From Cordylochernes scorpioides (lineage: Eukaryota; Arthropoda; Arachnida; Pseudoscorpiones; Chernetidae): a DNA stretch of 64,000 nt. Under the pieces are notes generated by a model. It worked only from the letters and a program-made list of their open reading frames with translations, did not search any database and was not told where the DNA came from. The stretch is taken from contig CP092870.1 in assembly GCA_030710605.1 (NCBI GenBank), forward strand, positions 94,990,941-95,054,940, given 5' to 3'. A program made the translations under genes and the position numbers. This document shows positions 3,640 to 64,000 of the stretch, piece by piece (the stretch's first letter is position 1; every line of letters begins with the position of its first letter).

Positions 3640-4490
3640 AAATATTATTAACAAATACATTTATGTATTAACTCACATACATTTGAATGTTATTATTTTA
3701 GGAATAATATTCATTTTAGATTATTATTTGTGTAAAAATAAACATTTTCTCTGCTGTCTTTTATATTTTGAAATTTAACTAGTATAATAGCATAATTACT
3801 CATATTTTAAATACATTTTTTTTGTTGCTTCGTCTGAAATTTTATATAAATCTATCGTTATTATTCAATATATAGACATTTATAATAATAATATATATAT
3901 TTCCTAAATATATACATTATTTATAAACAAACTCTTTCTTTTGTTTATTTGTAAAATATTTGGACATTGATTTTTATTGTTTAATTTGTAATTATTTCTA
4001 GGGACATTTTAATTTCGTTTAATTAATTATTTTATGATTACCAATTTTATTTAAAAAAAAAATTTTTTAAGTCTTTCTTTTTTCACAGGGGGGGGGGGGG
4101 GGGGGGGGGGATATTATATAATCTAAACATTCAAATATTTTATTTTCATTCATTGAATATTCTACATTTTTGACCACATAAGTTTTTTTTTAAATAGAAT
4201 ATGCTACTTTTGTTATAAATATATAGTGTGTGTGTTAACTCACCTATTTTAAAAAATTCACCAATATAGAATTAATTTATAAATTCTATATAACTCGGAA
4301 ACTTTTTTACTGTAATTTTCTTCAAGTAATTGAAAATAAAACTACTTGATAGTAATTAATTATTCTTCTGCTTTTCTTTTAATACGACTCTCTTGTGTGT
4401 GCACCTTCAAATCTTTAACTTAAAAAAATATATATATCATAACAGTAAGCCGACAAATTTATTATAATATATATATATGAAATAAACAAT
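3640..4490. repeat. Paralogous copy of 650-764 plus 2212-2900, without the Tigger insertion
   Basis: The sequence follows 650-764 then directly 2212-2900 (for example ACTCATATTTTAAATAC, TATTTGGACATTG, the poly-G, then AGTAATTAATTATTCTTCTG). The two copies differ by many substitutions and small indels, so the duplication is older than the Tigger insertion in the left copy. No coding sequence is seen. Confidence 0.85.
4088..4110. other. Poly-G tract (23 G)
   Basis: Twenty-three consecutive G, flanked by CACA and ATATT. The length is probably unreliable in assembly and may form G-quadruplexes. Confidence 0.9.
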
Positions 4491-4523
4491 AGAAAAAAAA
4501 AAGATAAGTGGGTCAGATGTTGA

Positions 4524-4788
4524 TATTAAAAATAAAGAAGGCATCTCCTGACCACGAGCACATGTGCTTTTTAGATGACAGAGCGCCATCTAGTGGAGCA
4601 AAAATAAACTAAACGTTTATTTAGCTTGCTCCGTGATATTTGGCCAACCCAATTTCTTGATAAATCAAGCGATGGAGCAAGCTAAATAAACGATTAGTTT
4701 ATTTTTGCTCCACTAGATGGCGCTCTGCCATCTAAAAAGCACATGTGCTCGTGGTCAGGAGATGCCTTCTTTATTTTTAATATATATA
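4524..4788. repeat. Foldback of family P (GATGGCGC family)
   Basis: Arms at about 4540-4660 and 4674-4772 are complementary; both contain CCACTAGATGGCGCTC and CTGACCACGAGCACATG. Related pieces lie at 15715-16120, 20045-20130, 22800-22885, 28170-28250 and 33270-33625. The centre, with TTGATAAATCAAG, matches the flank of the decayed hammerhead motif at 33.4 kb. This suggests the hairpin is a rearranged end of the same retroelement family. Confidence 0.75.
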
Positions 4789-6918: not shown

Positions 6919-9900
6919 GTAAGTGGTCTAGCTGTGACCTAACCTTGAGTCATTTCAGTTTGTGACAATCTTGACCTCAGAGGAAGTCACCTCTAGCAAT
7001 AAGTTTCTTTGTTAATAAACCTATAGAAATACAACATCAACTTTCGAGCTGGGAGCTCTTCCTCAGACTTTGTTATCGACAACCTGGTTTAAAGTGTAGC
7101 TACATAAACCACACCAATGGATAGTGGACTACCTAGACCGAAGTCTGTACACAAACTAGTCGCAAATTGAAACATAGCCAAACATTTGAGAAATGACCCC
7201 CTCGAAAGCTGACTTTGTAGCTTTATAGGTTTGTAAAACGCCATTTTGAAGGTTGGTTAAAAAAAAAGAGGTTGATGTAAATAATTTTCAACTCAATATA
7301 GGAAGTGGAAAGTCTTTGATGTTTCCAGTCGTTTTATTTTTATTTTTTGAAGGAGAGACAGAGGAAATTTTGTTCACACTTGGTTATATCGTATGTCTTC
7401 AATAAAGGTCACTGTAATATCTTTCAGAGTTATTGTCTGAATCCCGATATACATGGTAAAAGGAACAGCAATGTTAGATCCCGCTATGGATAAAAAAAAT
7501 ATTGCGTACCCACCCAATTATTGAAAAATCGAAGTATTCTTTGCCTTTTAAGGTTTCATTACAGCCACCTTTTTTTTTTTTGCTTATCCCTAGTACACGT
7601 GGTACTGGCCGTGATATTCATGGTGGGTAGAAGTAGGCGACTGCTTTTACTGTAAGTGCACCAAATGTCTACACATGTGAAAAGCAGTTTGACTTTGCAC
7701 TTACAAATGTGCCAGAGCCCCGTTTGTTTACTTGCACCCCCTGGTGGGGTTGAACTTTTGCAAGAATCGGGGGCCATTGGAACATTTTTTTTTCTGAATC
7801 AGAAAAAAGACAGTCATTTTTAACGTTGTTATATATATTACTAGACGGGTGACCCGGGCTTCGCCCCGGGATTGATCCGTGTGCATATCTACCCGAGTGA
7901 TATATATTTTGATAAGATTTTTTAAATAATTGTTTGTTATTAGCATTATCTATTTGTTTGCATCATCATAATTTAATCTAATCTTTGATAGGGGGCGGTG
8001 TTCATGAGCTAAGTAGAATAATTTGAATATATAGTTTTAATAATTGATTTACCGGGTAGTTGGCGACTTCTGTACGCTCCAGGAACCTGGGTTACTTAAA
8101 TAAATAAATAATTGATTTATATATTTTTTAAAATAGCCTATCGTCTTCCCCGTATTTTTTACCTATGTATGGAAATTTTGGTTTGAATTAGTGAACTACT
8201 GCGAATTTGTATACCGGACATACAAACATACAAGCATTCATTTTTATATATATAGATATACTAGCCGAATGACCCGGGCAACGCCCGGGTTTTACTCGAT
8301 TAAATGTTTTTATTCAAATAATATTCGTTACAATTATAAATTGACACCGTGGATGTCACTTTTGTGAAACGTCCCGCTCCAAACTTTGTGTCTGAGAAGC
8401 GATATTTTTATAGAAAGATGATCTGGCTTTTGTTTTCTGCTCGAATGAATGTTTTTCTGTTAGAATTTTGTTCCCGCGTACAAAACAATGAACTGGTTTC
8501 ACCCGTGGTCTCTGCTTTTTGGAATTTTTCCCGATATAATTATGTATCTAATAATCAAACATGATACAGCAATATCGTCATCATTTTCTGACTAAAAATA
8601 TATAGTTTTAATAATTGATTTGATTAATATAGTTGATATAATATATATATATATATAAATAAATATAAAGCATATATTGGATCTGAATTTATTAAACGGC
8701 CAATATTTCTAGGGGCAACACGCCTCTCTTTATCAAGGCTTTTGATTTAAACTAAATCACGTGGGCATGTGATCCACTCATGCTATATATAATCTATATT
8801 AATAAAATGCAAATTTCACAAGTGTTGTTCACTAAAAACTTTCGTTACAATGCATCAATTTCGACCAAATTTTCAACATTTATGTAAAACGAGATGGAGC
8901 AGGTTTTGCTTAACATCAAAATATATTTCCTAACATTAACATGCGTAACTTCGGTGTTATCGATTAAATACAAAAAAAAATCAACAGAGTTAATTTTATT
9001 TATATATAAATACAAAAAAAAAAAAATTCAACAGAGTTAATTTTTTTACATACTAGCTAATAATCTCAATCTAAAAAAATATTCAAAACAAGCAATTTTA
9101 AGATAACACCATATGTAAAACAGTCGGCCAAGAAAACAACAACGATATTACATCTTTCTCACATATTCACACACAATCTTGATTAATAATTAAAACTAAT
9201 CTTTAACATTGTTTATTATACTTCATAATATATAATATTCGTTAGGAAAACTTTCACTCGGATAAAACCCGGGCGAAGCCGGGTACACATCCGCTAGTAT
9301 TTATATATATAGATAAATGAGTTTTAAAAATTGTAAAAAAAAAAAATGCATCGGCCGGGAATCGAACCCTGGCCGCCCGCGTGGCAGGCGAGCATTCTAC
9401 CACTGAACCACCGATGCTTTAAAAAAATGGCCATATTTAGGTATTCATTCCATTCCGGATTAGTCCGCGTAAAAAAAAGTTCTTCAAATGAAAAAAAGAA
9501 ATAGCCAAAAATACTAATCAAAATGCAGCCGAAAATTTTCCTCAGGTTTATAAAAAGCGACATGCAAAATTTGGTACCAATTGGTTCAGTAGTTTTTGAG
9601 TTTATCGCGAAACAGACAGACTGACAGACAGAAATTGACTTTTATATATATAGAGATATATTCATTGTTGTCATAATATAATTTAAGGTTTTCAGATCGG
9701 TTAAATTAGGTTAAAGTAGCTCTTGTAGGTTTGGTTAAGTTGATTTAGATATAAAATTATTTTTGTTTACCGCGAGTAGTAATACAAATTTCAACCCGTT
9801 GAAATCTCACCTAAATTTTAGTATTTTCTATGTTATGATTGATATACCGAATGTGTTTTTGTAGACCTGCATTATCGCCCTGCCTTGTGTTAAGTTGTAA

Positions 9901-12900: not shown

Positions 12901-15900
12901 AATGATGTGACACATTTCGGGATATTGTAGATAATGATGTGACATTTCGGGATATTGAAGATAATGCTGTTATATTGGGGATATTGTAGATAATGCTGTT
13001 ATATTGGGGATATTGTAGATAATGATGTGGCATTTCGGGATATTGAAGATAAGGCTGTTATATTGAGGATATTGTAGACAATGATGTGACATTTCGGGAT
13101 ATTGTAGATAATGATGTGACATTTCGGGATATTGTAGATAATGAGATGTGCGATATTTCGGAATTCTGAAGATAAAACTTCTGGTTACTGTGTCGATGTG
13201 ACATTTCACGAAGCTGAAGACGCGAGGGAAGACTAGAGAGATTGGTCGAGGCGAGTGGCCATCCTCAACCGCCCGGAGTTTGGAAAATAAACAACTCCAT
13301 CTTCACTGGTGTTTGGTACATTCTTGGAGTGGAGTGACTTGGAGATCGCGGGAGTTGGGGTGAAGTGCTTAGAAGTTATTGGGAGTTGGAGGAAGTGGTT
13401 TGATGATATTGGGAATTGGGGGTGAAACAAGTTTTTAAATATTGGGAATTGGGTTGAAGTGGTTTGAAGATCTTGGGATTTGGGGTGAAACAGGTTTTAA
13501 AATATTGAGAGTTGGGGTGAAGTGGTTTTAAGATATTGGGAGCAGGGGGTGAAATGGTTTTGAGATATTGGGAGCAGGGGGTAAGTGTCTTGAAAATCTA
13601 GGGATTTTGTGGTGAAATGGTTAGAAGATATTGTGAGTTTGGGTGAAGTGACTTAAAGATATTCGGGGTTGGGGAATAAGTGCCTTGAAGATCTTTGGAG
13701 AATAATGTGAAGTTAATTTTGTAAATTTTGGGGTTTTACCTGGTGTGTATTAACTCCATCTTTCGAAGGTGTATTCGTGTAAAAAATTTGAAATAGTTTA
13801 ACTCCACAAATATGGAATTCAATTATTGAGCTTTTAATATAATATAGACACACAAAAGTAGAGGTTATTATTTTCTGGATAAAATATAGGAATACGGGGA
13901 ATAATCATGGCAAACAGAAAGGTCCACGATATCAATACAAAGGTCTGTGTGTGGGGCAGAACGAGCTGGGAGTCCACAACTCCAGCAGCAGCAGGCGTGG
14001 ACTGTCCCGACGGGAAGATCGGTAAGTCCGCCAAGAGAAGAAACATAGAGAAAAGAGAGACGTATGTAAATGAATATGTAAATGAATGATCACTTGTAAA
14101 TTATTAGCTCATCTTTTTCTAGCAATTATGTACCTGGTCGAATCTTGTGTATGACATAAGTCTTCAAGCACAACGACAATTGTGGACATTTGAGTGGTGT
14201 CCAGGCAGAGCCAAGGAAGAAGTTGACCCAGTTACTGGAAAACTCTACCTGGACACTTCACAGTGCGTGTCACCCTGGCTAGACACACTTCTGAAACGTT
14301 TCAAGAAGGTAGGTCCGTGTGAGCGGAGTCTTTATCCCCGTTTTTTCAATCCCAGTGTCAATTTTGACCCTTGCGACATACAGAACGCAATAGATATGGT
14401 ATTCATTAAGGATGAAACACTTAGTTTGGATTACAAGTAATCTTTTGAAGATCATTTTGTTAGTTGGAAGTTTGTTTGGAAACGATATTGTAGAACGACA
14501 TTTGAAAATTATCCCGCATGTGTTTCTTTTGAACGAAAAATCGAAATTTATTTTAAGGAGAAATTAAGGGATTCCCATCTCTTTATTTTTCCGTTTATCA
14601 TTACTTTTCACAATTCATCCTTTCATACTTCATCCCTAAGGTTATAAATAATCGTTATTTCTCCTTAAAATAAATTTAGATTTTTCGTTCAAAAGAAACA
14701 CATGCGGGATAATTTTCAAATGTCGTTCTACAATCATAAGAGCCGCATAATATTGTATTATATGGCTATATTAATCAATTTTGTTAAATTTAGTTCCCAA
14801 AGATTTCCCTGAGGAGAGTAACAGCAATGTCACTGAAACGTCGATAATTAAATAAAAAATTAATTGATATAGTCATATATTTTTCCAATTAATCTTTTAT
14901 TGGTCTTTCTCTCTCCAATATTTAGATCAGGCAATCGCTTATAATCTTCGAGGAATATGTACCCAGAATCCTTAACTGATGGCGCTTCCACGTTAGGGGA
15001 TGGAAGGACTTTTTGCTTCGCTAATCCATTGACTTTTCACAACGCGTCATTATTCAAAACTGTACTGTCTCACGTTATACGACTTACTTCCATTGAAACC
15101 ATTCCATTTTTCAACCATTGAGTATAAATCGTATTTTTCATTTAAAAAAATAAAAATAAAGTTATAACGCGCATTATTATTATTTATTTAGGTAACCCAG
15201 GTTTCTGGAGAAACGCGCGTAATATTGAATATTTCCATTAATTCAACAACAACAACAAAAGCCTTTATTAAGACGTTAGTCTTATACAGATTCTCCGTAC
15301 AAGGTGCAATAACAGGAAAAGAGCAGCACAGGAAACCAGTAGTTCCGCAACTATATACAATTATTAGTAATAAGAAAAAGTAAGATTTAATATGAAAGGT
15401 CGACGCCATCGCCTCTAGTCTTCAATTCCATACGCGCGGAGCAGAAATAGGGACCAAGTCATTAATTCAATAAATTTAGTTTCTATATCTCAAATTATGG
15501 TTAAAAACATCAGACGTACACAAGGATATGTGTCTCTATTAAATATTCTATTAAAAGTTTCTCTAGATTTTTAGATACTAACTAAGAACGGCCATGCACC
15601 TCCACCCACCGAATCAAGAAATAAATTTCTTTTTAGATACTGTACGCTATTCTACAAGAAAGCATGATCAAATAGAATAATAAACAAAATCGTTAACATA
15701 AATCACAATATTAAAAACCAAACGGGTATTTCCTGACCGCTCGCGTGAGCATTTTAAATCACAGAGCGCCATCTATCGGAATAAAAATCAACTAAACGTT
15801 GATTTAACTTGTTCCAAAGATATTTGGCCAACGCAAATTCTTGATAAATTAAGAAAAGTCAACTACCTATGCATTTCGGGCTGTTAGCCCTTGTCAAGTC

Positions 15901-18900
15901 CTGGTGCAGACTGAACGAGTACCTCTACGACTAAATATTTGGTCCCAGAGGCTTCCTGAGAAATCAAGAAATGGGTATTTTAGGCCAAGTTTGAGTAAAT
16001 ACGCTTTTCATATGAAAAGATAAAAATGGTCAGAGGTGTTGATATTAAAAACAATATTGGCATTTCCTGACTGTTCACATGAGAATTTTAGATAACCGAG
16101 CGTCATGTTATAAGGTATTTTGCTTAAATGCTTTGAAAGTAAAATAACTTTTTTTTCGGAAATTTTATATTTTCACCTTAATTCGAACAATGGTAATACA
16201 GTCAAGATGTCCACCTCAACAACTAGATAATAAGTCTGACAATACTGTCGGAGAATTCTGTACGTTCCCCCCAAGGTTATAGGGTATGCAGTTTAATGAT
16301 TGGTTGGTCAATACGGAATACTGTCGAAGAACACAAATTTACAGTTGTTTCTGACCAAACGACCATATTTGGAAATCAATACACGCTATTAACGTGTGGT
16401 ATATTGATCAGTATTATCATCACGTCTGTGTCGTAATCGATTATTTTATTTTTACAATTAAATTGATTCTTTTTTTCCATTGCCCCACGTCTTTACAATA
16501 TATCTTCTCGATATTTACAAAAAAAAAAAAAAAAAAAGGAGAGAGATAACAAATATTTTTAATTAAAACTACTATCGGATCCACTCTCGAGTGTACTATT
16601 TTTGCATATCGGCTAGCTGACTTATGCAAATTACTAATTATAGGGTCATTCATTTATAAATAGAAGAATTTCAGGATTTCCAGAGTACAGATCTATCCAT
16701 ATAGACTGACATACCTGTAGATAGAGATATAACGTCGTGATTTGTGCGGAATTAAGAGTTGAATTAAGTTGAAGAGTGAATTTTACCACAGAGAGAACCA
16801 TGTATAGTCATATTAATAAATAAACACATTGTGCATGTGCAAATGCGTTTTTATTTTATATTTTCTAGAAACAAAGTTATATAGAAGATGTGTTTAGCAT
16901 TCCAATACGTAGAATCCTATCTATTCTTTGCTAGGGAAAATGAAACATATCTGTCCTTAAATATCAATGTTCCTCTAGGTTTACAGAGATATCCAATCTC
17001 AAAATGCCTTGGATCTGAAAGAAGTGCCTACTAGGAGTTTAAAAAAATCCCTAAATCTTGGGTGTTCAAATTTTTCAAGGGAAGTCCCAAATCCGAGTCT
17101 AGGCAAGATGCTGTTAGGAATATTCTTGATCTCCAAAAAAGAAGTGAGAATTCTAGATCTAATTAACTATATTCTTAGAATAAGGTTCTTGTTCTCCAAA
17201 GGGAATCAAGTTAATTCAATGGAGAACCAGTTATTGATATGATAACCATAATTTTAGAATAATGGGCTTAATCTCCATGAAGAACCAGTTCTTGGTATGG
17301 ATAACCATAATTTTAGAATGATGGCCTTCATCTCCATGGAGAACCAGTTCTTGGTATGGATAACCATAATTTTAGAATAATGGCTTTCATCTCCATGGAG
17401 AAGAAACAGTTCTTGGTATGATAATTATAATTTTAGAATAATTTCCTTGTTCTCCAAAGAGTACTGACTCAATATTGAAGAGAACAATGCTATATAACTC
17501 TCAGTAGAAATTTACTCTCCCAAATAGTAGCATCTCGTAAGGTTATACAATCCCAGAGAATCCTTTATCTAGATATGTTTCCAACAATGGAGCTAAGGTC
17601 GGGCTATCTGAACACAGATCCACGCAGGTTTCCTAAACGCCAGCCTGTGCAGCGCGAACCTCACCTGCTGCGGGTGTTCAACGTCGAAGCTGTGCTGAAA
17701 GAGGTCGTCAATAAGAGCGAGGAAGAGGACCTAGGACCTGGGGACATCACGGGCATTCTGGACCTCTTGGGCTTGCTGGAGAGAAATACTGTAGAGATTG
17801 GCGTAACTAGTGGAAGAGATAGTTTACCTATAGTTATGGGTGATGGGTACCTAGTTAATCTAGTTAAGAAGGTGATGGTGGTGGCGGTGTATAGTATAGC
17901 CTAGTTAAGAGTACTCAGGAATATGGGTTTACTCCATAGATAGAAATATGTAAATAAAGATGGAGACACCTACCTAGTATAGAACGACTTATGTTGGCTA
18001 GTGTAGTAATGGTGGCGGTTATTCTAACTACATTGAGAATTTAGTTGTCTATCCTATAGAGACATCTATTTTATATAGAGAGAGACATGATATTCCATCT
18101 AGTATAACTTATGTTAGTTAAGGTGGTGATGGTGGTGTGTCTATTTAACTATAATCTAGTAGAAAATTGAGGATTAGATGTCTATATATATTCCGTAGAA
18201 ATATATTCTATATAGAGATAGAAAACTAGTTTTATTTATAGTTATGTAGTTAGCCAAGATGGTGGCGGTGTATAATTTTGACTAATCTTGTAGAACATTG
18301 AGGAATAGATATATCTAGTGTCTCTTTATTCCATAGATATCTATTCTCTATATAGACAGAAAGATAATATTATATATAAAGTATATATAGTTAACAGTGA
18401 TTGAAATTGTTAGATAATGTGGTGGCTGTGTTTGATTGTAACTATAATCTATAGTAGAACATATATTTAGGAATAGATATAATATAGTGTCTCTCTACTC
18501 CATGTATATTCTATATAGACAGAAATATAATATTCTATATAGTTAACAGTAATTAATGTTGTTAGATAATGTGGTGGCGGTATTTGATTGTAACTATAAT
18601 CTATAGTAGAACACACATTGAGGGATAGATATAATCTGGTCTCTCTACTCCATGTATATTCTATAAATAAAAAGACATATATTGGATCAAAATATCATTT
18701 ATTTTACCAATATTTCAGTTGGCTGAAGGCCAACCTTTATCAAGGTATTATAACATTTTAAACCTTTAAAATGTTCAGCCAACTGAAATATTTGTAAAAT
18801 AAATGATATTTTGATCCAATATATGTCTTTTTATTTATATATTTATTTATGGATTGCTCTATTTTCAAAATGTATATTCTATATCGACAGAAAGATAATA

Positions 18901-21900
18901 TTCTATATAGTTAACAGTAATTAATGTTGTTAGATAAGGTGGAGGTGTTTAATTCTAACTTAGCTAGTGGCATTGATGATTATAGTGTCTACTCCACATT
19001 GATGTCTATTACATATAGACACAGAAAGACAGTCTTCTAGCTAGTTTTTGGATTAATTTATGTCAGCTATGGTAGTAATGGTGCTAATCGCGTTGTAGAA
19101 ATCTTTGAGAATAGAAGATCTTTATTAAGAAGAAAACAGCAGATATATACAGGAAAAAAAATTCGTTAAAAAATATTTTATATGACTCTCCCTCTCTCCA
19201 GGTTTGAAAGCCTTTCTGCGTCGTTGATTTTTAAAGACCTTCAATGTGTATCCATTCCATTTTTTTGACAATTTAAACAATTATATTGATTCTTCTAATC
19301 AATTGTTACAGAACAAAAATATTATGATCAAATAAAGGATAATATATAATAAATGAGTAAATAAAGGGTAGATAAAATGTAAGGAAATATATATAGTTGC
19401 ATATGTACAAATTTCTTCAGCAAGGGAGGCTTCCCACCTTTCCATAGCTGTCCATCCATTCCATATCTGTCTATTCCATAGCTGTCTATTCCATAGCTGT
19501 CTATTACATATCTGTCTATTCCATAGCTGTCTATTCCATAGCTGTCTATTCCATATATGTCTATTCCATAGCTGTCTATTCCACATCTGTCTATTCCATA
19601 GCTGTCTATTCCATAGCTGTCTATTCCATATAGAAAATGTGTATTCCATTTCGTTATAAATAGGATATGCGCTATAAGAGGTAAAAGTAGCGTCTATTCG
19701 GTTTATTTTATTCTATTCTTTCTCTTTCATTTTGGTTCCTAACCCTAGTACAGGACGTTAAGGTGATGATCAAGAATTCAGACAAAAGCCAATCAACCTG
19801 TATACCATGGTTTCGGGGTTATGATCCTCATCAGTACAGTGACGGCAGTAACATCCTGCGAGAGGAGTTAACGGTAGAACAAAAAGCCTTTTTTTCACAT
19901 TGTGTTGCGTTCTCACGCAATTCTGGCCTTAACTACCCGTTTCATGATTTTTAAGGATGCCTGAATGACCAGTTTTTGGTCGTTGAGGTACAACTTGAAC
20001 CACGCTGATGAGGGCCAACAGCCCGAAACGCGTCCATGGTCAACGAGAATAGTTGATATTTATTCCGATAGATGGCGCAAGCTATCAGCAACTTTTAGTT
20101 GCACGTTAAGGAGATGCCTTTTTTCATAAAAAAAAAAGCTTTCAGTTCAAAGTATATTTGCATATGTATTAGAAAGGCTCTCATATTGGATCAACATATT
20201 TTATTCCGAATGAAGACATTAATACGCGAATGTTTCTTTTCACAAATAAATCAAACTTCTACTGTCCTTACTGCGATGAACAAATATTGCGAGGGCTTGG
20301 CTCATCAGTGGTGAACCCTTCCAGCGGTTTTCGTCGCATTAAGAACAGCATAAGTTTGATTTATTTGTGAAAAGAAACATTCGCGTCTTAATGTCTTCAT
20401 TCGTTATATATAGATGGTGTGTTATTGCTTTGTATTAATATTTTATACCATCAATATTTCGTATGGGTATGCGTCATACTTCCATGTAGAACAGAATTTA
20501 ACTTGAGAAATCTGTTTGGAATTTGCATATCCTATAACGTGCTTCACAAAGCAAAGCTTTCCTCATCAAGGAACTCTGTGACATATGGTCACATAAAATA
20601 TTGGAAGACTAAAATCATTTTGATCCAATATGAGCCTAACAAATTAAATATGAATGGTTGCGTTTTCAAACATATGCTACAGGGCTGACAAGGGCCATTA
20701 GCCCGAAACCATGGTCTTCAGATGGACGCTTCTCAGTTTACCAGAGTTGGTGTCGTGGGTTTGTCACCGACCCGAGGCCGGTAGTTTGCGGTGATGGTCA
20801 ATAGACAATTTAAACAATTTTATTGATTCTTTCAATCAGATTTTACAAAGGAGAAAATATAAGAGTAAATGGGCATATAAAGTGTAGGGGAATATATTTA
20901 CAAATATCTTCAGCAAGGAAGGCTTCCCCACCTTGAGAGAGTCCTCCTCCAGACAAGGAGGGGGTCTTCTTGTACACTCCTCAGTTCCGCGCCGATAGGT
21001 CAATAGATGGCGTTTAGTTTTGACGGGAGAAGCGTCCTATACTTTTATAGATCAATTTCCTCCCGGCAAGATTTCCATCTATATGCATATACGTATAATA
21101 TCCCATTATGCAAATTGGAAAAAAATCCTCCCCAGCAGGATGAATTCAACATTCTGCTCTCAGACGTCCTGGCATCAACACCAATCTGAATGGACACAGG
21201 TGACTTCAGGCAACATGGAACCAATCGGCCAGGTGTCATCCTCTAGCCATTTTAGCGACCAGCAGAACCCAGTAAGGATAGTTCTTGATGTAAAATTAGG
21301 CCTAACAATTATCAGCCAGACAGAACTTGTGAGGTGTGGACTGTGTAGGACGATGTTTCCCAAGCCGTACGACTGGAGACCCTGAAAGATTTAGCCGAAA
21401 ATACCAAAGAAAAAGAGCTGGGCCCTGGCGATGTGGAAAAGACCTTGGAACTCCTGGAAGAAATAGACAAAAAGGGCAGATTAGAATCCAATCTGATGCC
21501 AATCACAGAGGACCCCAAGATCAACCTAACCCTGACAGTGTATTCAAATCTGCTGACCAAGAAGAACAGAAAAGGATGGAAGAATATGTCTTGGGTGAGA
21601 TTCCTGTTCTTAATTCCTTATTTGCATATACCACAATGTGTAATTTAAGAACGAACTGAGATAAATAACTCAATAACCTTTTCTCTCTATATATTTTTGA
21701 TTATTATCTTTGTAATTAAAAATATATAATTAATGTATATAGTTAATTATAAAATGATTTATTCGTTATACACAATATATGTAAATACATATAAAGAACC
21801 AGGTCTTTTACCAAATAATGATGATATTACCTTACAATATGCAACAAAGTAATACGAGAACCTGTTTTCAAATTTCTAGACGACATTTCCAGCATTTATT

Positions 21901-24900
21901 GAAAATAAAACACATTGAATATAATAAATAAATGACAAAATTTGACTATATAGGCGTTCGTAAAAAGTCAGTGTTCATTTTAAAATATTACTATAAATCA
22001 ATTTATTTTATTTAATAAAATGTGTAACAGTGTCTGGAATACATATCCAGAATTTATTATAGTCTCTGATAGCTTTATTTTACTTAATATCTCACATTGA
22101 GTTCACAATTTAATAAAATAACCCCCTGTATCAGTGTTAAGAGGTGTCAAGCTTCCAGAGATAATTTGAGGCAATAGACGATCCATCAATTAAGTTTATA
22201 TAAAAGGACGTACCTGGATCTGTAAAGAAAAAAAGCAATTTTTTTCACAAAATATATTTCGAGAGATTGTTCCCTCTTTATCAATTTATTGTACAGTACA
22301 ATAAATTGATAAAGAGGGAGCAATCTCTCGAAATATTTTGAGAAAAAAATTTTCTTTTTTTTTCTTTAAAGATCCAGGTACACCCTTTTATATAAACTTC
22401 CAGGGATAAGTTTATTTTAATTTTTTTTTATTCATAAATCTCTAGCTTTCGGGAACGACAGGAGAGAACCTTGTATCAAGTTATTGTATCATGCTTTCTC
22501 CCGTAGAAGGGCTTTGATGACTGAAAGCTCGAGAGATTTGTGAATTAAAAATCTGGTTCAAATCACATTGATAGGTACCGCTCAACAAGAGCAACCTAGT
22601 TCATGATAATTGAAACAATGAATAATATGTGAAGGTTATTCATATATATTAAACAATTTTTAACGCGGGATTCAATCCCGGTTCATGACTGTCGGGAATC
22701 GAGCGTGCTACCCTCTCATCCACCGACCTTTTTTTAAATTAAAAATCTTGAGAAGAAACTTATCCCCGTAAAATAGTAAAAAATTTAAATTGTACTTTAA
22801 TCAGGTGGATAAATTAAGAAAAAAGGTATCTCCTGATAGTGTATCTAAAAGTTACTGATGGCTTGTGCCGTCTGTCGGAATATCTTTGTAGAGTAGAATA
22901 AATTAAATAGAATTCGATGTTGAGATTAAATATAGTTTATTTAAAGTAAGGTTACAAAGAAGAGAATAACGGGAGCTCGCGCAGTATGTTTACAAAATGG
23001 CCGCCAAGAAGCACCTCATCCGCGCATGCTCCCACTGTTCCACTGCGCGCGCACCTCCCGGGCCTCCCCCCGCGCATCCTTTCCAAATGGCGATGCATTC
23101 ATATTTCACAGCCCTCCCTCCAGGATGTCGACAGCGTCCTCGCTGTCCCAGCTATTGTAGTCTCCGGTCACCAGCTGTTGGCCAGGATCTCTGTAGGGCT
23201 TCATCCGGAGCACATGGACGACGTCTTTCTGGCTGCGTCTCCTCCGTCTTGAACTTTGTTCCAGAGCTTCCACTTCATAATTCACTTCCGACACCTTCCT
23301 CGTTATCTTATACGGCCCGAAGTATTTCTTTAGTAATTTCTCGGACAACCCTGTCTTTCGAACAGGGGTGAACACCCAGACGAGGTCCCCAACACGGTAC
23401 TCAACAGATCGATGCACCTGGTCGTAATGGTACTTGTTATTCTCCTGGGCTCTCAAAATGTGTATCCGAGCGAGCTGCCGTGCTTCTTCAGCCTTGGTTA
23501 CCATCTGATCTCCAAAGTCATGATCCGATGTTTCGTCTTCGTAAGGCAGCAGGACATCAAGGAGGGTCTCGGCCTCGCGACCATGAACCAAAAAGAAAGG
23601 TGAAAATCTGGTACTTCCTTGTTGGGCCGTGTTGTATGCAAAGATGACATACGGCAGAACGCTGTCCCAATCCCTCTGCTCGGCGTCCACATACATGGAG
23701 AGCATGTCACCCAGGGTCTTATTCAGCCTCTCTGTCAATCCGTTTGTTTGAGGGTGATAAGCCGTGGTGAACAGGTGGCTTATCTTGCAACGGGAAGTGA
23801 CTTCTTTGACCATCTGAGACATGAAGGCCCGACCTCTGTCAGTTATTATTTCGCGTGGAGCGCCATGCTTCAAAATTACTTCTTCCAGTATGAAAGTCGC
23901 GATTTCTGCAGCCGTACCAGATGGCAGGGCTTTGGCGATTGCATATTTGGTCAAATAATCTGTACATACAATTATCCATCGATTTCCTTTGTCCGAAAGG
24001 GGAAACCTCCCCAGCAGGTCCATGCCTATTTTCTGGAACGGAAATGACGGGGGTTTAATGGGAATTAGTTTTCCAGCAGGCAGTTTGTTTTCTCCCTTTC
24101 TTCGCTGGCACTCCTTGCAATGGGCGACATAACGTCGAACGCTGTTGTAAAGTCCCGGCCAGAAGTATCTCTTTCTTATTCTGTCGTAGGTCCTTGCAAA
24201 ACCTAGGTGGCCCGCGGTCGGAACATCGTGGAACTCCTTCAGGATATCTGGTCTCATACACTTCGGTATAACCAACAGCAAACGTCTACCCAATGGATCA
24301 AAATTACGCTTATAGAGTAGACCGTTCTTCATTTCGAATCTCTCGGCCCCTTCACCCTGGTTTAAGGCATTTGAAATTTTTGTTATATCAGGATCTAGAT
24401 TCTGTTGTTCTCTTACTAATGTAAGCGACGTCAGAGCAGGCGACTCTGGCAGCGGGTATCTCGATAGGCAATCCGCGTCTTTGTGCTTGACCCCGCTTTT
24501 ATAGGTGATGGTTGCTTCGAAATCTTGCAGTTTGAGGGCCCATCTTGCTAGTCTTCCAGAAGGGTCCTTCAGACCAGCCAACCAGCACAAAGAATGATGG
24601 TCCGAAACAACCTCAAAGGGCCTTCCATATAAATATGGACGAAATTTTCCAATTGCCCAAATGACTGCTAGGCATTCTCGTTCAGTGGTTGAGTAGTTCT
24701 TTTCCGCCTTGGAAAGTGTTCTGGAGGCATAAGCAATAGGATTTTCTTGATTCTCCTGGATCTGTACCAGAACAGCACCCAAGCCGTAGCTACTGGCGTC
24801 GGTATGAAGTTTGGTGATGGCACTTTCTTTAAAATGTCCTAGTACCGGCTTCTGCATCAGAGCTTTCTTCAGGGACTCGAATGAATCTTTTTGCTCTTGT

Positions 24901-27900
24901 GTCCAAATAAACTTTTGATCTTTTTTCAGAAGAATTTGTAGAGGAGCAGCGATTTTGGAGAAATTCTTGATAAACCTTCTGTAGTAGGAGCACAATCCTA
25001 AATAGCTTTGAATATCACAGACGGACTTGGGTACAGGGAACTTCTTTATGGCTTCGACCTTTTCGGAGTCGGGTTGTATGCCATCCTTATCTACCACATG
25101 ACCCAGGATTTTTATTCTTGTTGATCCAAACAGACATTTATCCGGATTGATTGTAAGCCCCGCTTGTTGAAGACAGCTCAGAACCTTAGACAGACGTTCT
25201 AAATGTTCCTCAAAGGTATCAGAGTAGACCACGATGTCGTCCAAATAGCACAAACAAATGTTCCACTTGAGGCCCATGAGCACATTATCCATCATCCTTT
25301 CGAATGTGGCAGGCGCGTTGCACAATCCAAACGGCATTACCATGAACTCGTACAACCCATCCGGAGTAACAAAGGCAGTCTTCTCGCGGTCTCGCTCGTC
25401 CACCTCCACCTGCCAGTACCCGGTCTTCAGGTCCATGGTCGAGTAATACCTGGCGGATGACAGATGATCCAGAACGTCATCAATGCGGGGCAATGGATAA
25501 ACGTCTTTCTTGGTGATGTGATTTAGCCGCCGGAAGTCCACGCAGAATCTCCATGTGCCGTCTTTCTTCTTGACCAGCACCACAGGGGCTGACCAGGGAC
25601 TCTCAGATGGCTGAATTACTTTTCTTTCAAGCATGGTATCTACTTCCTTCTGCATTATTTCTCGCTCTCTTTTAGATACCCGATATGGGCGCTGCTTTAT
25701 AGGGGGATGGTCGCCGGTGTGAATTCTGTGCTTCACTCTGTTCTGTACCTTGTTTGCGTTTTTCATCGTGGGAAGGAAAACTCCTTTAAAAGACAACAGC
25801 AGCCCCATTAAATCTTCTTTTTTTTTTTTGGGCAGATCGGGGTTGATTAGAGATAACAGGTAGTCGCTGTGGTCATCTTCTCTTCTCTCCCTTGAAAAAC
25901 TTTCCGGCTCCACACTCAAGAGGCACACGTGTTCCGTCTCAATATCGCACATCCTACCCAAGTTCATTCCTTTCGGAATCATTTGAGGTTGAAGTCCGCC
26001 GTTAGTTATCCAAATTTTTCCAATTCCTTCTTCAAATTCAATCAACGAAGAAGGAAATATCACGTCTTTTCGAATGAATAGTTCTTTAGAACAGGTAACC
26101 TCCATGTTAACAATTCCTACGAGAGATCTATTGACGACGCTTATCCTCTGCGACGATCTCCCGGGGATAACGAAGTCTTGGATAGCGTACACTCCGTCAT
26201 CTCTACCCTCGGCGTCTAGGTCTGGTAGGTCGTCCAGTTGTAGTTCGCCCAGACCGCAGTCGATAACCGCGTTGGTCGCCTTGAAGAAATCCCAGCCTAG
26301 AATCACATCGTGACTGCAATTTTCCAAAACGACGAATTCAAAGTTTTCCGGATGTCCATTTACTTCCAACTTCAAAGTGCAGCGTCCTTTGGATTTGACC
26401 ACCTTATCGTCAGCAACTTTCAATACAACGTCGGTTTCGGCAAACATCGTCTTTTTCAGTTCTACTCTGAACCGCTCGGATATAACAGAATAGGAGGCTC
26501 CGGAATCCACCAGAGCCCGTATTGTGTCGCCTTCAACTTTAATGTCAATGTAGTTGTTCGTCATTTTCACGACTGTCGACAGGGGAGGAATTATAGGTTG
26601 TGCAGCGGCCTCACCTCCATTTGAGGGCGCGGTTCTTAGTTTTCCGATTGTAAACGCCGAGGAGACTGGCTGGCTCGTCTTGTAGCACTGCGACCAGGGG
26701 AACTTCCGCGTCTAGGAGAAGGGGAGGGGCTGCGATAACGTCTGGTGCTGACCCTTTGATCAGCGTCGTTTGAGTTATTGTTGCGTCCGGAGTTCGTCAT
26801 TGTCCTGGCCCGATCTTGGTACATTTCGTCTCTTCTCTCATCAAGTAACCTCCTCCTGTCGCGGCAATAGCGGACAACGTGGCCGGGCCGTCCACAGTGG
26901 AAGCATACGGGCGTGCCGTCTGGGGTCCTCCACTCATTAGTGTCCCGTACTTCGACTCTTGAGCCACTTGCTTCGACCTTAGGTGCATACCAGGTGTTCT
27001 TTCTATAGTTCCGTGGTGCTGACCTCGCCGCCGATTCCATTGGGAAGGTATTTATCCCCGACATGGGAGCGAGGACTTTGTCGACTTCCTCCTTCACTAT
27101 TTCCTCAAGGGAGGAGATTCTTGGTTCTTCCCGTGGCGGTGCTAGGGCCCGCTGCACTTCTTCTCTAACGATCTGTCTTATCAGAGACTGTAGATCCGTC
27201 ACGTCCCCCAGGTCACCGAGCGAGGTAACATTGGGCAAGCGCTCGAATTTTGAGGCTGTCACTCGTCGTCCTTGGAGCGCCACAACGCGACGACACTCTG
27301 CAATAAACTGATCCGTCGTCGCTATGTCTCTCGGCAGAAGATACCGGTAGACTTCCTCTGCTACTCCCTTCATCAGATGAGATAGTCTCTCTTCTTCTGG
27401 CATCTGTGCATCTACTTCCCTGCAGAGTCGCAAAACATCTTGGATATAAAATTCAGTGGTTTCGCCCCTCGTTTGAGCTCGCACCTTTAGCTTTTGCTCG
27501 GCTTGACGCCGCAGGTTATCTTTCTTCCCAAATACGGATCCTAGTTGGTCTTTAAATATCTCCCACGATGGGATATTTTCCTCATTATTTTCGTACCACC
27601 GTTGAGCGGTACCGTGTAGATAAAAGTACACGTTAGCCAGACTGAGCGAATCGTCCCAATGGTTATGTCTTGCCACTCTCTCATAACCTTTCAGCCAGGC
27701 TTGGGGGTCTTCGCTGATCTCACCAGAGAACATGGAAGGGTTCCGCACCACATTCTGACAAAAGAGTGGACTCACCTGAGTGGTCGCCTCGCTTCTGTTG
27801 TTCATCGTCGCTGTGTTGTCGGGGGTAAGTCCTTGTAATCTTCTGCTTCTTCTAATAGAGCGTTCTTCTTCTTTAGGTACCCAGCTGATCTCCGCCACTT

Positions 27901-30900
27901 TGTAGAGTAGAATAAATTAAATAGAATTCGATGTTGAGATTAAATATAGTTTATTTAAAGTAAGGTTACAAAGAAGAGAATAACGGGAGCTCGCGCAGTA
28001 TGTTTACAAAATGGCCGCCAAGAAGCACCTCATCCGCGCATGCTCCCACTGTTCCACTGCGCGCGCACCTCCCGGGCCTCCCCCCGCGCATCCTTTCCAA
28101 ATGGCGATGCATTCATATTTCACAATATCAACTAATCGTTAATTAATCAAATAATTAAAAAAAATTAACGATTAGTTAATATTTATTCCGATAGATGGCG
28201 CAAGTTATCAGTAACTTTTAGTTTCACTATCAGGAGATTTGCCTTTTTTCGTAATTTATTTCCGCGAAAGCCTGATATTTTAAACTTAATAACTCGCACT
28301 AGTCTACAAATATACGACGGATATAATTCAGAGAGTGTTTACAACGTCTCTCATACATTCTCGGTGATGTTATAGAACAAGAGAAGAAGCCAAGCGGCCA
28401 GGGTGATGCAGAACGTCGAGGATTACGGTCACAAGGTGGCGTGCCGACCTGGCCGAGGGAACAAAGTACGATTCCGACAGGATCACCTGGGTAAATGCCA
28501 GCTACTGTAGATTCAGCAGAGTGTTTGACAGCTGTGTGGACAGGTATGGAAGTGTCGTCAGTGGATTCAGGGTCGCTTGTCGTGTTCTCCAACGGCGAGA
28601 GTTCCTTGGTCCTTAACGCGACATTTGGACTCGAGCTGCCGTCCCATTGCCCAGGTCGGCCTGGTGTGAGAGTCGGGGTGTGGTTCCGAGGCCTGTCGTC
28701 GTACCTACCTCCCCTGTATGTCCAAACTTCACCTTATATCCTCCGTACAATACAATTGTATCACTCTAGAGTCTCCCATGGGAAACCATAGCCTTTAAAC
28801 ATGGCTAAATCCAGTCTCTCCTGGTTGTTGTTAGGTCAAGTCATGAGAAGTCTTTAATTGAAATAAGGCCTATAAAATAATATAAATAAAACTGCTTCCG
28901 AGAATAAGTTTCTTGCTTTGCTATATATATTTCTTCTAAAGTTTTCGGGTTTTGTAAACTCTTCTAAAGGAGTTATATTATCATGTAGAAGGGCTTGTAA
29001 ACCAGAGAAAGCTTGAGAGAAAAAATATAAAAATAAAGCAAGAAACTCATCCTAGTGAATTAGATTCGCAAAGAATGAAGCGCTAGCGTGTGAAAGCGTA
29101 TCATTTTAAGCAATAAAAGGAAACCTTTTGAAAATCATATTCTTTCGTTTATTAGGTAATCACAATTATCATTTAAGCTTATACATTCCGGTGAGATAGA
29201 AGAGAAATGCTTGTGTACAGGAAGCATCGCAACGACACCGACATCGAGGATGAAGAGCTGGTGACCTCGGACATCCTGGGCTACAGCTTCAGCCCCCGGG
29301 TATCTGTGCCGTTACCTGCGGGTTCTGAGGTCAAGATGTATTTGAAACATCAGCAGACGCCATCTATGTGTGTCTTCTGGAACTTCTCCCTGTACGTCCC
29401 GCCACCACCGATGTGTCAACCTAGAGCGACACCCAGGTATGTGTGGACAGGCCGGGCTGGGATACGAGCGGCTGCGAGCGCGTGGGCTCCAACGCCACCC
29501 ACACCACGTGTTCCTGTTCCCACCTCACCAACTTCGCCCTGCTGCTGGACTACGCCGGGGTAGGTACAGGCCCGCGTGACGGGACGTGACGTAACGCTGA
29601 GGTCGCCAGGTGGTGAGACAAGACGACCCGGTGCTGAACGCCCTGATGGTCATCACTGGAGGACTGTCCATCCTGGGACTGCTGCTGACCCTCGTGTGTC
29701 TCTCCTCCCTCAGGTGACCACTGACTTGATGATTTCAATGACTGACTATTGGTATTTTACCCGGTGAATGGAATAACTGACCTGATGATTAGGAGAACTA
29801 AAATGGCCAAAACTGATTTGAGGACTGGAATGACTGACCTGACCATTGATATGGCTGATATAAGGAGTGGAATAATTGACGTGAGGAATGTCGTGACTGA
29901 GATGGACGGCCAAAATTGATCTGAGGACTGGAACAACTGATCTGAGAACTGGAATGACTGACCTGATGTTTGGAATGACTGACCTGATTATTGGAACGAC
30001 TGACCTGAAAGGGGAGTGAACTAACTGACCTAATGATGGGAAAGACTAACCTGAGGGCTGGAAAGACTGACCTGACGATTGGAACGACTGACCTGAAGGG
30101 GAGTGAAATAACTGACTTGATAATGGGAAAGACTGACCTGAGGGCTGAAACGACTGACCTGACGATTGGAATGACTGACCCGAGGACTGGGATAACTGAC
30201 CTGAGGGGGGAGTGAAATAATTGATCTGATTATTGAAATAACTGACCTGATGATGGGAAAGACTGACCTGAGGGCTGGAAAGACTGACCTGACGATTGGA
30301 ACGACTGACCTGAAGGGGGAGTGAAATAACTGACCTGATAATGGGAAAAACTGATCTGAGGGCTGGAACGACTGACCTGACGATTGGAACGACTGACCTG
30401 AAGGGGAGTGAAATAACTGACTTGATAATGGGAAAGACTGACCTGAGGGCTGGAACGACTGACCTGACGATTGGAATGACTAACCCGTGGACTGGGATAA
30501 CTGACCTGAGGGGGGAGTGAAATAATTGATCTGATCATTGGAATAACTGACCTGAGGACTGGAAAGACTGACCTAGAATGGCCCCCCTATATAAAGACAA
30601 CCCACAGAACAATATATTACAGGCAGATATAATTTATAACTCACAAAGTATACTATATAGAATGACCACAACCTGAGTTCCGATTGAACAATGCCGGCCG
30701 GGTGGTCACAGGGCCCTCCGCAGTCGCAGGAACGCCATCACGTGCCATCTCTGTGTCATGCTGATGATGGTGAACCTGCTGTCGCTCTTCGGCATGTGGA
30801 CGCCGCCCAACTCGGTCAGTTTGATCGCACACATCAACCTAGTCATTATTTTATAAATGGATACAATAAAGCCTCTTAATTTGAAATATATATACAGTAG

Positions 30901-33900
30901 AACCTCCATGAGAGGACACTCGCGCTAGAGGACACTTCTCTACAAGGACAGTTTTCATTTGCAAAATTACCATTTTTACTATTTAGCAACTCTCCGGTAG
31001 GAGGACACCTCTCCGTAAAGGACACTTTGGCTCTGAAACTAGGTGTCCTTTACAGGGAGGTTCTACTGTATATATATATATTGCACCCAAGGAAATAGTT
31101 TTTCTTAAGAATTGATCTTTCGCATGTTTTAGTGTATTCCCTTCGATCCAGCTGAATAGACTATGTGTGTATAGATAACCTTTCTCCCTTCATTAGTTTT
31201 CTCCTATTTCTTTTTTTCAGAACCCCTTGTATATATGGCTAGTATCTATAATTTAAAAATGTGTATGCCTATTATGTAGTTTTCAATACTTTTTTTCTTT
31301 ACTCCACTTTTTATAATCCTCAGGAGAATTTTGGATAAGGCTGTGTGTGTAGAAATTTCTCTGAGAGGTTGTTAGCTTCCAACGAGATACCGTGTTTTCC
31401 CTGTTGAATGATTGATTGTTGATCTACTTATGGAGACAGTATCGTTGCCGGGTAGTTCGACGCTGAAGGAACCCGATTTATAAATAATTCTCTATCATTA
31501 ACATGCACAAAAGAAGTGAATATAGCTAATGACTCCTTCTCGTATTTTGGTAGAATAGCAGAGGCGAAACTGGTTTTAAATTCCTGTTAAGGTATAAACC
31601 AACTCACTCACTCGACGAGTGGCAAGTTTCACGGTATATATAACGGGTGTTCTTGTTCTAAAATCACTTTATTAGGTACCGCTCAAAAAGAACAACCTAT
31701 TTAATGATATTTGTAACAAATAATAATATGTGAAGGTTATTCGCATATTAAACAAAATGTTAACGCGGGATTCAATCCCGGTTCATGGCTGAATCGAGGG
31801 TGTTACTCACTCGACCACCGACTCTTTTTTTTTTTTATAACGGATGTACTAACCATGTGGTGCACTGAAGCAAATGTTATGATGGATGGTGCAGGTTAGC
31901 TGCGACGTAGTGACGGCGATGCTGCACTACTCCGTCCTGGCTGCCTTCGCCTGGATGGGGCTGGAAGGTCTACATCTCTACCAGCTGGTGGTGGTGGTGT
32001 TCCAGTCAGGCAGCGGTAGTCTGCTGGGCTATCTCGTCGCCGGCTACGGTATATATTGATTTGAAACTATTTCATTATATACTCATGGACAAAACTTAAG
32101 GAAGTGGAAAGTATTTGATGTCGTGAGTCGTCTATTTTTTTTTTTTTAAGGATACAGAGACAATTTTGCTCACACTTGGTTATCTCAGGTATCTTCAATA
32201 AAGGTCACTAATATATTTAAGAGTTATTATATGAATCCCGATATACATGCTAAAAAGTACAACTTCCTAAGTTTTGTCCAATATCTATTAGATCAAATTC
32301 TTGTATTTATTTTAAACGAAAAAAAAAATATATATATATATGGTAAGCTTTCTCGGAGACTATCTTTAATCTACGCCGTATACGTGTTATACAAAATATA
32401 TTATTAACCCAGGTTCTCCCCCAATGGAACATACAAAAGTCGTCAACTACTTGGGCTGTCCTTCTGACACCTAAGTCTTCTCGAATTTAAGCCCAAGAGA
32501 AAAAACACTGAGAAAGAGTGCCGTATGTGAATGGATTTGTAAATAAACGATCACCTGTAAGTAACTAAATCATCTTTTCTAAGCAAGTATACACCTGGGG
32601 GAACCCTGTGTAGGGCATAGGTCCCCAGTAAAAGGTTTTTTGTTGTTGATAATAGAAATACAATTCCTGAGGTGGCACCAGGCAGACTTGTTTCTTGGGA
32701 GATTCTCAAAGGGGGTGCTGGAGAAAATGGATAATTTAAAATAAAATAATATTTTTTAATATGTACTCTGAGGATCATCGGAAGATCGTCTTGTGACCAT
32801 ACTGGAGGGATACATATCTTTAAGAATGGAGGGGAGAGGTACATCAAGGAAGGATTGATAAACAGATAAAATAGTCTGTAATTAGAAGAGATACAGGGTG
32901 CTCGATGATATCAGAGATGGGTGTACTACATGATGGTATACGACAGGTGTGCCCCTGGTGATCGTGGGGATCACCTACGCCACAAAGTCCCACAGCTACG
33001 TGTCAGACACGTAAGTGTAGTAGCCTACGTCATGTAGACTGTCTGTAGCTCACATCTACGTGTAGATGCTGGTTGAGGGCAGACAGCGGAGCTATCTGGG
33101 GGTTCGCCGCGCCGTGTCTGGCGGTCATACTGGTAAGTTATCTCGTCGACTGTCATGTGAGTATGACATCATTTACTATGACAAATGACTATCGGTATAC
33201 AAAACCTTCTGACTTACTGTTGGAGAGAGTACGGAAAATCGATGACCTCAATATAAAGGTATGAATGAAAAAACAATAGAAAAAAATAAGTGGGTCAGGT
33301 GTTGATATTAAAATATTTAATATCAACACCTGACCCACTTATATATATATTTTCTATTATTTTTTTCATGTGTGTTAAGCGTATTTACGCAAGTTTGGCC
33401 TTAAATACCCATTTCTTGGTTTTTCAGGAAGCCACTGGGACCAAACAGCGCGAAACGCGTTCGTAGATGGCTTTTCTTGATTTATCAAGAAATTGGGTTG
33501 GCCAAATATCAGGGAACAGGTTAGATCAATTAATAGTTGATTTCTGTTCCACCAGATGGCGCTATGCCTTCTGAAAAGCATGTGTGCTCCTGGTCAGGAT
33601 ATGCCTTTTTTATTTTTAAAGGTATGAATGTGCTCACGTACAGAAGGGTACATGACCATGTGTGTAGATTCTTGAAAAGACTGTAGGAAAACCTTTCAGG
33701 CTTCACATAGGAAGAAAGGTTACTTGTTCATGTCCCCCCCTTGGTATAGTTGTAAAAGAAGATTAAAAACAGGCTCTACTGCCAACTATAAGACGGTAGA
33801 TTGAACTAGAAAGAGGACTCTCAAATTAATGGTCTTGAAAGTCTGGGTAGCTATTTGATTCCTGTATCACAAGTCCATCAGACCATATTCAAATAGATTG

Positions 33901-62301: not shown

Positions 62302-62401
62302 NNNNNNNNNNNNNNNNNNNNNNNNNNNNNNNNNNNNNNNNNNNNNNNNNNNNNNNNNNNNNNNNNNNNNNNNNNNNNNNNNNNNNNNNNNNNNNNNNNN
62401 N
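62302..62401. other. Assembly gap, exactly 100 N
   Basis: One hundred N, the conventional placeholder for a scaffold gap of unknown size. Confidence 0.99.
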
Positions 62402-62545
62402 AACATCCTGCGAGAGGAGTTGACGGTAGAACAAAAAGCCTTTTTTCACATTGTGTTGCGTTCTCACGCAATTCTGGCCTTAACTACCCGTTTCATGATT
62501 TTTAAGGATGCCTGAATGACCAGTTTTTGGTCGTTGAGGTACAAC

Positions 62546-62594
62546 TTGAACCACGCTGATGAGGGCCAACAGCCCGAAACGCGTCAATGGTCAA
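62546..62594 (+). ncRNA. Hammerhead ribozyme, second copy
   Basis: Core CUGAUGA 62556-62562, stem II GGGC/GCCC, GAAA 62576-62579, GUC ending at 62585. Identical to 19995-20043 except A for C at 62586, which breaks the innermost stem I pair. Confidence 0.72.
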
Positions 62595-63231: not shown

Positions 63232-63270
63232 CTGACAAGGGCCATTAGCCCGAAACCATGGTCTTCAGGT
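63232..63270 (+). ncRNA. Decayed hammerhead motif, second copy
   Basis: CTGACAAGGGCCATTAGCCC then GAAACCATGGTC, as at 20683-20722. Confidence 0.5.
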
Positions 63271-63942: not shown

Positions 63943-64000
63943 GTGAGATTCCTGTTCTTAATTCCTTATTTGCATATACCACAATGTGTAATTTAAGAAC

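Follow-up and report, generated by a model that had tools for sequence, protein, structure and literature searches.

Hammerhead motifs upstream of a duplicated GAIN-domain exon in Cordylochernes scorpioides are probable remnants of two non-LTR retrozyme families

The window analysed here is a 64,000-nucleotide stretch of the genome of the pseudoscorpion Cordylochernes scorpioides (C8:94990941-95054940), and the genome that was searched comprises 2.62 Gb in 24 contigs. On the plus strand of the window, positions 21373-21594 form part of a host exon that encodes a piece of a GAIN domain (PF16489, E 8e-7), as in adhesion GPCRs, and is followed by a GT splice donor; the hammerhead motifs may lie in an intron of this gene or ahead of it. 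A PDB search with this exon returned only pentatricopeptide repeat proteins, six in number with a best E of 7.7e-5, which we took for chance matches of helices, and another exon tested, at 17.5 kb, matched no Pfam family. The exon recurs at 63721-63942 within a duplicate at 96% identity, 42 kb away, in which 19850-20774 corresponds to 62402-63321 and 20994-21652 to 63354-64000. Since this duplicate contains the GAIN-domain exon, it represents a segmental duplication and not a second insertion. An adhesion-GPCR-like gene seems to be tandemly duplicated, and its copy runs past the window end. The window also carries a tRNA gene on the minus strand (9347-9417; Rfam, 59.4 bits) and a tandem repeat at 46516-47737 with nine copies of 137 bp at 99% matches.

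The hammerhead core pattern CTGANGA..CGAAAC has three matches in the window, one of them at 62556, compared with 0.12 expected from shuffles. The three motifs given by the initial annotation are present at the positions and on the strands that it had assigned. The plus motif (19991-20049; core 20005-20029) reads CTGATGAG-GGCCAACAGCCC-GAAACGCGTC^CATGG, with a predicted cut after 20034; the structure read from its sequence has stem I ACCACG/CAUGGU, stem II GGGC/GCCC, and a helix III consisting of an A-U pair with a CGCG loop. The minus motif (19790-19848; core 19834-19810) reads CTGATGAG-GATCATAACCCC-GAAACCATGGTA^TACAG, with a predicted cut after 19803, stem I CUGUA/UACAG, and helix III ACCAUGGU. 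The third motif has its core at 20685-20709 on the plus strand. The description of the first two as core-intact holds for the conserved core letters, but the minus motif retains just two pairs in stem II, and in the plus copy stem I contains one C.A mismatch and 61 nt of the unit are missing at 20040, directly 3' of the ribozyme. In the third, decayed motif, G8 is changed to A, and similarity to intact relatives does not begin before the core. The placement of the motifs among type I hammerheads with a very short helix III, in the world of Penelope elements and retrozymes, was right in kind. What had been overlooked is that the duplicate holds a core-identical plus motif at 62556-62580 and another third motif at 63232. 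These belong to a duplicated family A copy (62441-62673, plus; hammerhead 62542-62600, with one more stem I mismatch) and a duplicated family B copy (63232-63424, plus; same changed core), respectively, and 100 N at 62302-62401 cover the spot where the duplicate of the minus motif would fall.

The three motifs score very differently. No Rfam hammerhead family reached its gathering score in the whole window, and at a relaxed threshold the sole hammerhead match in 19000-21600 was the plus motif (HH9, 18.2 bits, E 0.45). In a descriptor scan, the plus motif ranked first with 10.5, the best of eight random windows reaching 8.1, and an apparently unrelated site ranked second with 9.1; the third motif ranked third with 7.3, inside the random range, and the minus motif was missed because its stem II is too short. 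A covariance model built from 14 family members, the window plus copy and its duplicate included, gave E values of 7.6e-20 for the plus motif, 0.012 for the third, and 0.9 for the minus. In monomer folds of the window motifs, the full hammerhead was not the minimum-energy structure; dimer folds of the family B hammerhead and of the minus motif had an extended helix III, a modelled feature that is suggestive only. The window copies are decayed, and the plus motif alone could still cut, probably slowly, so that transcripts through the locus could at most cut at this one motif.

The plus motif lies in a family A copy at 19890-20123 (plus) that runs along unit positions u197>342>6 and then u68>151, u1 being the base after the predicted cleavage site, and these parts are 94% and 92% identical to the unit of locus L012. 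A possible target duplication of this copy, AAAAAGC at 19881-19887 and about 20133-20139, is low-complexity and weak. When the flanks of the plus ribozyme were compared with two diverged copies in the window, homology was found on both sides, and 0/500 shuffles reached the score for each flank and copy. Further copies in the window belong to a subfamily, A2: one longer than one unit at 15708-16108 (minus; second right part about 335 nt off, by eye) with a decayed hammerhead at 15853-15913 (model E 1.8e-10), one that is head-to-head by eye at 33265-33625 (plus) with a hammerhead remnant at 33429-33476 (model E 0.0035) that has lost the 5' strand of stem II and the greater part of CUGANGA, and a head-to-head palindrome at 4478-4783 with no ribozyme match to the model. 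In addition, two family A fragments were found, at 28150-28259 (plus, u52>161) and at 22770-22882 (minus, u89>200), the latter adjoining a gypsy LTR. This LTR belongs to a Ty3/gypsy element at 22884-28124 (minus) with two identical 227-bp LTRs (22884-23110 and 27898-28124) and long gag and pol frames, which is a very young insertion.

Starting at the third motif, about 120 nt align with two loci elsewhere in the genome, L024 and L044, at 86-87%, and these two have 305 bp in common at 88.5%. In their hammerheads, the core reads CTGACGAG, stem I is CUAGA/UCUAG and, by eye, extended by an additional outer helix, and helix III is ACCAUGGU; in L024, part of the unit is repeated 319 nt apart, which gives family B a unit of ~319 nt. 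In the window, the family B copy with the decayed hammerhead CTGACAAG occupies 20685-20805 (plus; 86% over 121 nt to L024 and 87% over 119 nt to L044) and continues in a downstream part at 21008-21091 (plus; 92% over 85 nt to L024), the two parts being split by an insertion of ~200 bp that the duplicate does not have. The window core CTGACAAG differs from the family core by one G-to-A change, which lies at a CpG and corresponds to G8, whose 2'-OH has been proposed as the general acid (PMC6155905). The minus motif matches family B in L044 over 43 nt at 81%, with helix III and stem I design in common, and has a relative in L030 (70 nt at 79%) that is itself damaged at GAAA. In the flank comparisons of B or minus with A, and of B with minus, none fell below 19/500 shuffles; the B and minus motifs are placed because of their relatives in other loci. 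The minus motif is a B-like hammerhead whose stem II is damaged.

Between the A and B copies lies an inverted-repeat (MITE-like) element at about 20175-20637 (ends by eye; inner foldback 20202-20408). Its ends are AGGCTCATATTGGATCAA in the duplicate, with two extra bases at the left end in the 20175-20637 copy, and no target duplication was found for it. Rfam MIR869 matches in this region are the foldback of this element and lie far under the gathering score of that family. The inverted-repeat elements at 20175-20637, 18662-18839, and 542-657 have a common end sequence around ATATTGGATCAAAAT. Altogether, the A, B, and B-like minus copies lie close together upstream of the GAIN-domain exon; the plus motif belongs to a dispersed family, the motifs are worn copies of short mobile repeats, and remains of two retrozyme families have gathered at this locus, which lies upstream of a duplicated host exon.

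Genome-wide, the family A core pattern CTGANGAGNGCCAACAGCNCGAAACGCGTH has 24,371 matches (12,204 forward and 12,167 reverse), and the reversed pattern, used as a control, has 0. This count covers family A, not B, and it is a count of cores and not of proven ribozymes, because stem I is wholly unconstrained in the pattern, as is one pair of stem II. In a similarity search with a query that spans the plus ribozyme, all 40 scored candidates, the best 40 of 2076 first-look candidates, matched. Two of them lie in the window; the 38 outside it are 94-98% identical, in most cases along 19960-20040. The 37 loci fetched cover these 38 outside matches and represent the best-matching copies to a ribozyme-spanning query; the 14-member model has 67 hits in them at E up to 0.1, decayed ones counted. 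In L012, 3.2 tandem copies of a 342-bp unit occur at 97%. Among the first 100 core sites listed, all on contig C1, 16 neighbours lie <1 kb apart: 8 are on the same strand at 338-350 nt, including one series of five at exactly 338 nt, 7 are minus-then-plus (head-to-head), and 1 is plus-then-minus (tail-to-tail). Most sampled family A copies are single or head-to-head, not tandem. The GC content is 0.401 for unit A and 0.483 for unit B, and RNA self-pairing of one L012 unit is far above that of shuffles (z -7.77).

A pattern that required ACCACG and GAAACGCGTC picked 45 members from the 37 loci; stem I of these has the 3' strand CGTGGT in 30 cases, CATGGT, the sequence of the window copy, in 10, and something else in 5. 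Family A has stem II GGGC/GCCC and a helix III made of an A-U pair capped by CGCG, and subfamily A2 has stem II GCGC/GCGC and a U-A pair in place of A-U in stem I. Among 14 hammerheads, 90% of cells pair, compared with 22-40% in slid controls, and three pairs are changed on both sides, so that the stems covary between subfamilies. In column shuffles of the same 14 hammerheads, the number of paired cells, the number of both-side-changed cells, and the covariation score were exceeded by 0/500; the number of both-side-changed pairs (284/500) and of further pair types (427/500) was not exceptional. This test favours the structure to some degree, because the structure was derived from the same sequences. 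The L012 members reach 26-29 bits with the Rfam HH9 model, whose gathering score is 52; the Rfam thresholds miss these ribozymes.

Mapping of the 37 loci on unit A shows where the copies end. Segments of 150 nt or more number 63; the 3' end falls at u150-169 in 33 of them, at u200-209 in 18, and elsewhere in 12. The starts of these segments are scattered, and 18 segments are longer than one unit. The usual 3' end therefore lies inside the unit and not at the cleavage site, and the copies longer than one unit must have had a circular or multimeric template. When segments lie no more than 60 nt apart, they are nearly always head-to-head: among 26 such pairs, 25 are head-to-head (in 22 of the 37 loci), 1 is tandem, and 0 are tail-to-tail, with tandem pairs under-counted because tandem units are merged into a single segment on the six-unit ruler. 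The outer ends of the 25 head-to-head composites were classed as untailed (u140-170) or tailed (u195-215). In 4 of the 25, one end belongs to neither class; of the 21 classifiable pairs that are left, 20 combine one tailed with one untailed arm (10.6 expected, 0/20000), and 1 has two tails. The tail is ~50 nt long. The 24 unpaired copies comprise 15 untailed, 5 tailed, and 4 with other ends.

Target-duplication-like flanking matches, defined by a score of at least 8 (match 1, mismatch -2), were found at 17 of the 25 composites (2.6 expected, 0/5000), where they were sought within ~30 nt around the ends and need not abut them, and at 9 of 21 simple copies (2.3 expected, 0/2000 permutations). 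Several of the matches at composites are AT-rich, and both composites of L019 have common flanks and look like one insertion copied twice. The arms overlap by at least 4 nt in 10 of 25 composites, a count without a control.

The same genome has Penelope-like elements (PLEs) and abundant GIY-YIG matches. A search for the GIY-YIG domain (PF01541) gave 146 matches among 150 scored candidates, the best 150 of 17,015 first-look candidates, with open frames of up to 828 aa. Among the 146 matches listed, 11 pairs lie <10 kb apart, and 11/11 are minus-then-plus, that is, head-to-head. Four loci (L048-L051) were read, of which three had been selected for being paired. L049 and L051 encode a reverse transcriptase with a C-terminal GIY-YIG domain and form inverted pairs, 2.4 kb long and 100% and 98.9% identical, and a hammerhead without helix III lies downstream of the ORF in both arms of L049 and in one arm of L051. 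By eye, nothing separates the end of the minus arm of L049 from the target 10-mer GATTCAGGTA, and on the plus arm 32 additional nt precede the identical 10-mer. L048 (C1:8985500-8993500) has an N-terminal GIY-YIG domain in an inverted pair of 3430 bp at 99.5%, and Pfam found no reverse transcriptase in it; this element is, we assume, reminiscent of the permuted Naiad-type Penelope group. L050 had no Pfam match. Neither unit A nor unit B has sequence in common with the four PLE loci beyond chance-level matches, and among the matches listed, none of the 40 family A matches lies within 440 kb of a GIY-YIG match. A regular-expression scan with three patterns of the 37 A loci and 1-3 kb of flanks found no PLE ORF motif; its one hit was judged by eye to be a DNA-transposase frame.

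Based on the results presented above, we favour, with a probability of about 80%, the reading that the motifs are remnants of two non-LTR retrozyme families of C. scorpioides that would have been moved by Penelope-type machinery. The likeness to the metazoan non-LTR retrozymes, as set out in the sections consulted of PMC7229834, is extensive: a type I hammerhead in each short tandem unit, GC content <50%, many copies, target duplications >4 bp (here in family A), highly self-paired RNA, and co-existing Penelope elements with minimal hammerheads. Short tandem repeats of about 150-450 bp, as expected of such retrozymes, are found in family A, in the form of 342 bp x 3.2 and of five cores at 338-nt steps. 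On the other hand, head-to-head composites, one tailed arm, and fixed internal 3' ends are undescribed in those sections, and the paper names crustaceans and insects, the words 'scorpion', 'arachnid', and 'chelicerate' being absent from its main text. The newt and axolotl satellite hammerheads (PMC7229834 and PMC6155905, in part) resemble those of A in a helix III of one pair with a palindromic CGCG tetraloop and those of B in a helix III of two pairs with a palindromic CAUG loop; the comparison covers the form of the ribozyme, and the long satellite arrays of these animals were not seen in the sampled A and B loci. The plant LTR retrozymes (PMC4918200, in part) are likewise non-autonomous elements with hammerheads; unlike A and B, they have LTRs and type III hammerheads (PMC7229834, section 13).

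The insertion pattern is what connects family A with Penelope. PLEs are named as a strong candidate mover of animal retrozymes in section 17 of PMC7229834, on the grounds of type I hammerheads in common, tandem copies, and co-existence. In rotifer Penelope, as described in the available parts of PMC3846280, the pseudo-LTRs (pLTRs) are inverted and most commonly head-to-head, a 31-bp tail is optional on one inverted pLTR, the target duplications measure 8-10 bp, and pLTRs suffice for mobilisation in trans. Endonuclease-containing PLEs are thus like family A in their head-to-head pairs, one-arm tail, 8-10 bp duplications, and partial tandems (PMC3846280, in part), and in having a hammerhead, theirs lying in the pLTR (PMC11167929, in part); in contrast, no RT or GIY-YIG ORF motif was found at the 37 loci, and the unit is far shorter. 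The tailed/untailed pairing of family A is the main new evidence, because rotifer Penelope has this pattern and PMC7229834 had named PLEs as the candidate. The sampled family A insertions match the style in which Penelope retrotransposons insert, Penelope being the suspected, though unproven, driver of such elements. It counts against the link that the PLE hammerheads in this genome are of another, minimal type without helix III, whereas in those of A and B helix III is short and carries a palindromic tetraloop. It also counts against it that head-to-head neighbours outnumber tail-to-tail ones by no more than 7 to 1 among the C1 core sites, which had not been selected.

The mechanism of movement may be outlined as follows. 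Unit A would be transcribed as a multimer, the hammerheads would cut this multimer into unit-length RNA, and a host ligase may circularise the unit RNA, as proposed for other animals. A Penelope-type reverse transcriptase would then start near the fixed 3' end with its T run, copy one or more unit lengths of the circular or multimeric template, and switch to a second, opposite-sense template, which would yield a head-to-head pair. In the expected product, two 3' ends, of which one has the tail and the other lacks it, are enclosed by a target duplication of about 8-13 nt. In the sampled loci, the head-to-head, tailed/untailed, duplicated-target architecture is seen, with the hammerhead of each A unit near the copy-end point.

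Fixed 3' ends, scattered 5' ends, and target duplications are also compatible with LINE-driven retroposition. In that case, a LINE (non-LTR retrotransposon) would have mobilised the repeats, with twin priming as the source of the head-to-head pairs, and a LINE-type reverse transcriptase frame, judged by eye, does lie in the window at 44080-45414. However, the tailed/untailed pairing (20/21) and the copies of more than one unit fit the published Penelope pattern better, in a comparison that covers family A and the PLE loci, and we regard a LINE driver as quite unlikely. It is somewhat easier to imagine, though still improbable, that there is no independent family and that the repeats are solo pLTRs of an autonomous Penelope element whose pLTR is unit A. 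Inverted pairs, a tail on one arm, and short target duplications are indeed the architecture of PLE pLTRs (PMC3846280, in part). Against such an origin, the A units stand head-to-tail without an ORF between them, the three-pattern scan found no PLE ORF in the 37 loci, and at the PLE loci L049 and L051 the 3' region is unrelated and its hammerhead is of a different, minimal kind.

The initial annotation had proposed that 20035-20716 is a 682-nt circularising unit bounded by ribozymes, and two motifs in the same orientation do delimit it. The proposal is nevertheless very improbable: the motifs come from different families, a copy of A (unit 342 nt) and a copy of B (unit ~319 nt) with the inverted-repeat element between them, and the 3' ribozyme has lost G8 in both duplicates. 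Moreover, the helix III palindromes differ (ACGCGU vs ACCAUGGU), and therefore the plus and third motifs should not pair as a double hammerhead. The 680-nt circles that had been predicted are not expected; circles of the family, if there are any, would be about 340 nt long. That the motifs are a chance or functionless resemblance, as scores below the Rfam gathering thresholds might suggest, is barely credible in the face of 24,371 core matches compared with 0 for the reversed pattern and of compensatory stem changes between subfamilies.

In C. scorpioides, the sampled insertions themselves carry the Penelope pattern, amid ~24,000 core matches and abundant GIY-YIG matches. We found no publication on a hammerhead ribozyme in Cordylochernes, a weak result given that most subscription journals were outside the coverage, and, among the papers listed, at the level of titles and opening lines of abstracts and with weak coverage, none that links retrozyme insertions to the Penelope-style head-to-head pattern. 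In general, the chances seem evenly divided that animal retrozymes are ORF-less Penelope units, which began as pseudo-LTRs and are still moved by Penelope machinery in trans. If so, one mechanism, with a fixed 3' start, a circular or multimeric hammerhead template, and an opposite-sense switch, would make both Penelope and retrozyme insertions, and the autonomous element that drives animal retrozymes would be settled. The insertion pattern can be measured, and the same test can be applied to the genomes of mussel, coral, or axolotl.

One of the PLE loci holds a further ribozyme candidate: positions 875-929 of L049 (minus) match the Type-P1 twister model with 49 bits (E 1.5e-9, 1301 bases searched; gathering score 67.2), and this match sits beside the head-to-head Penelope pair.
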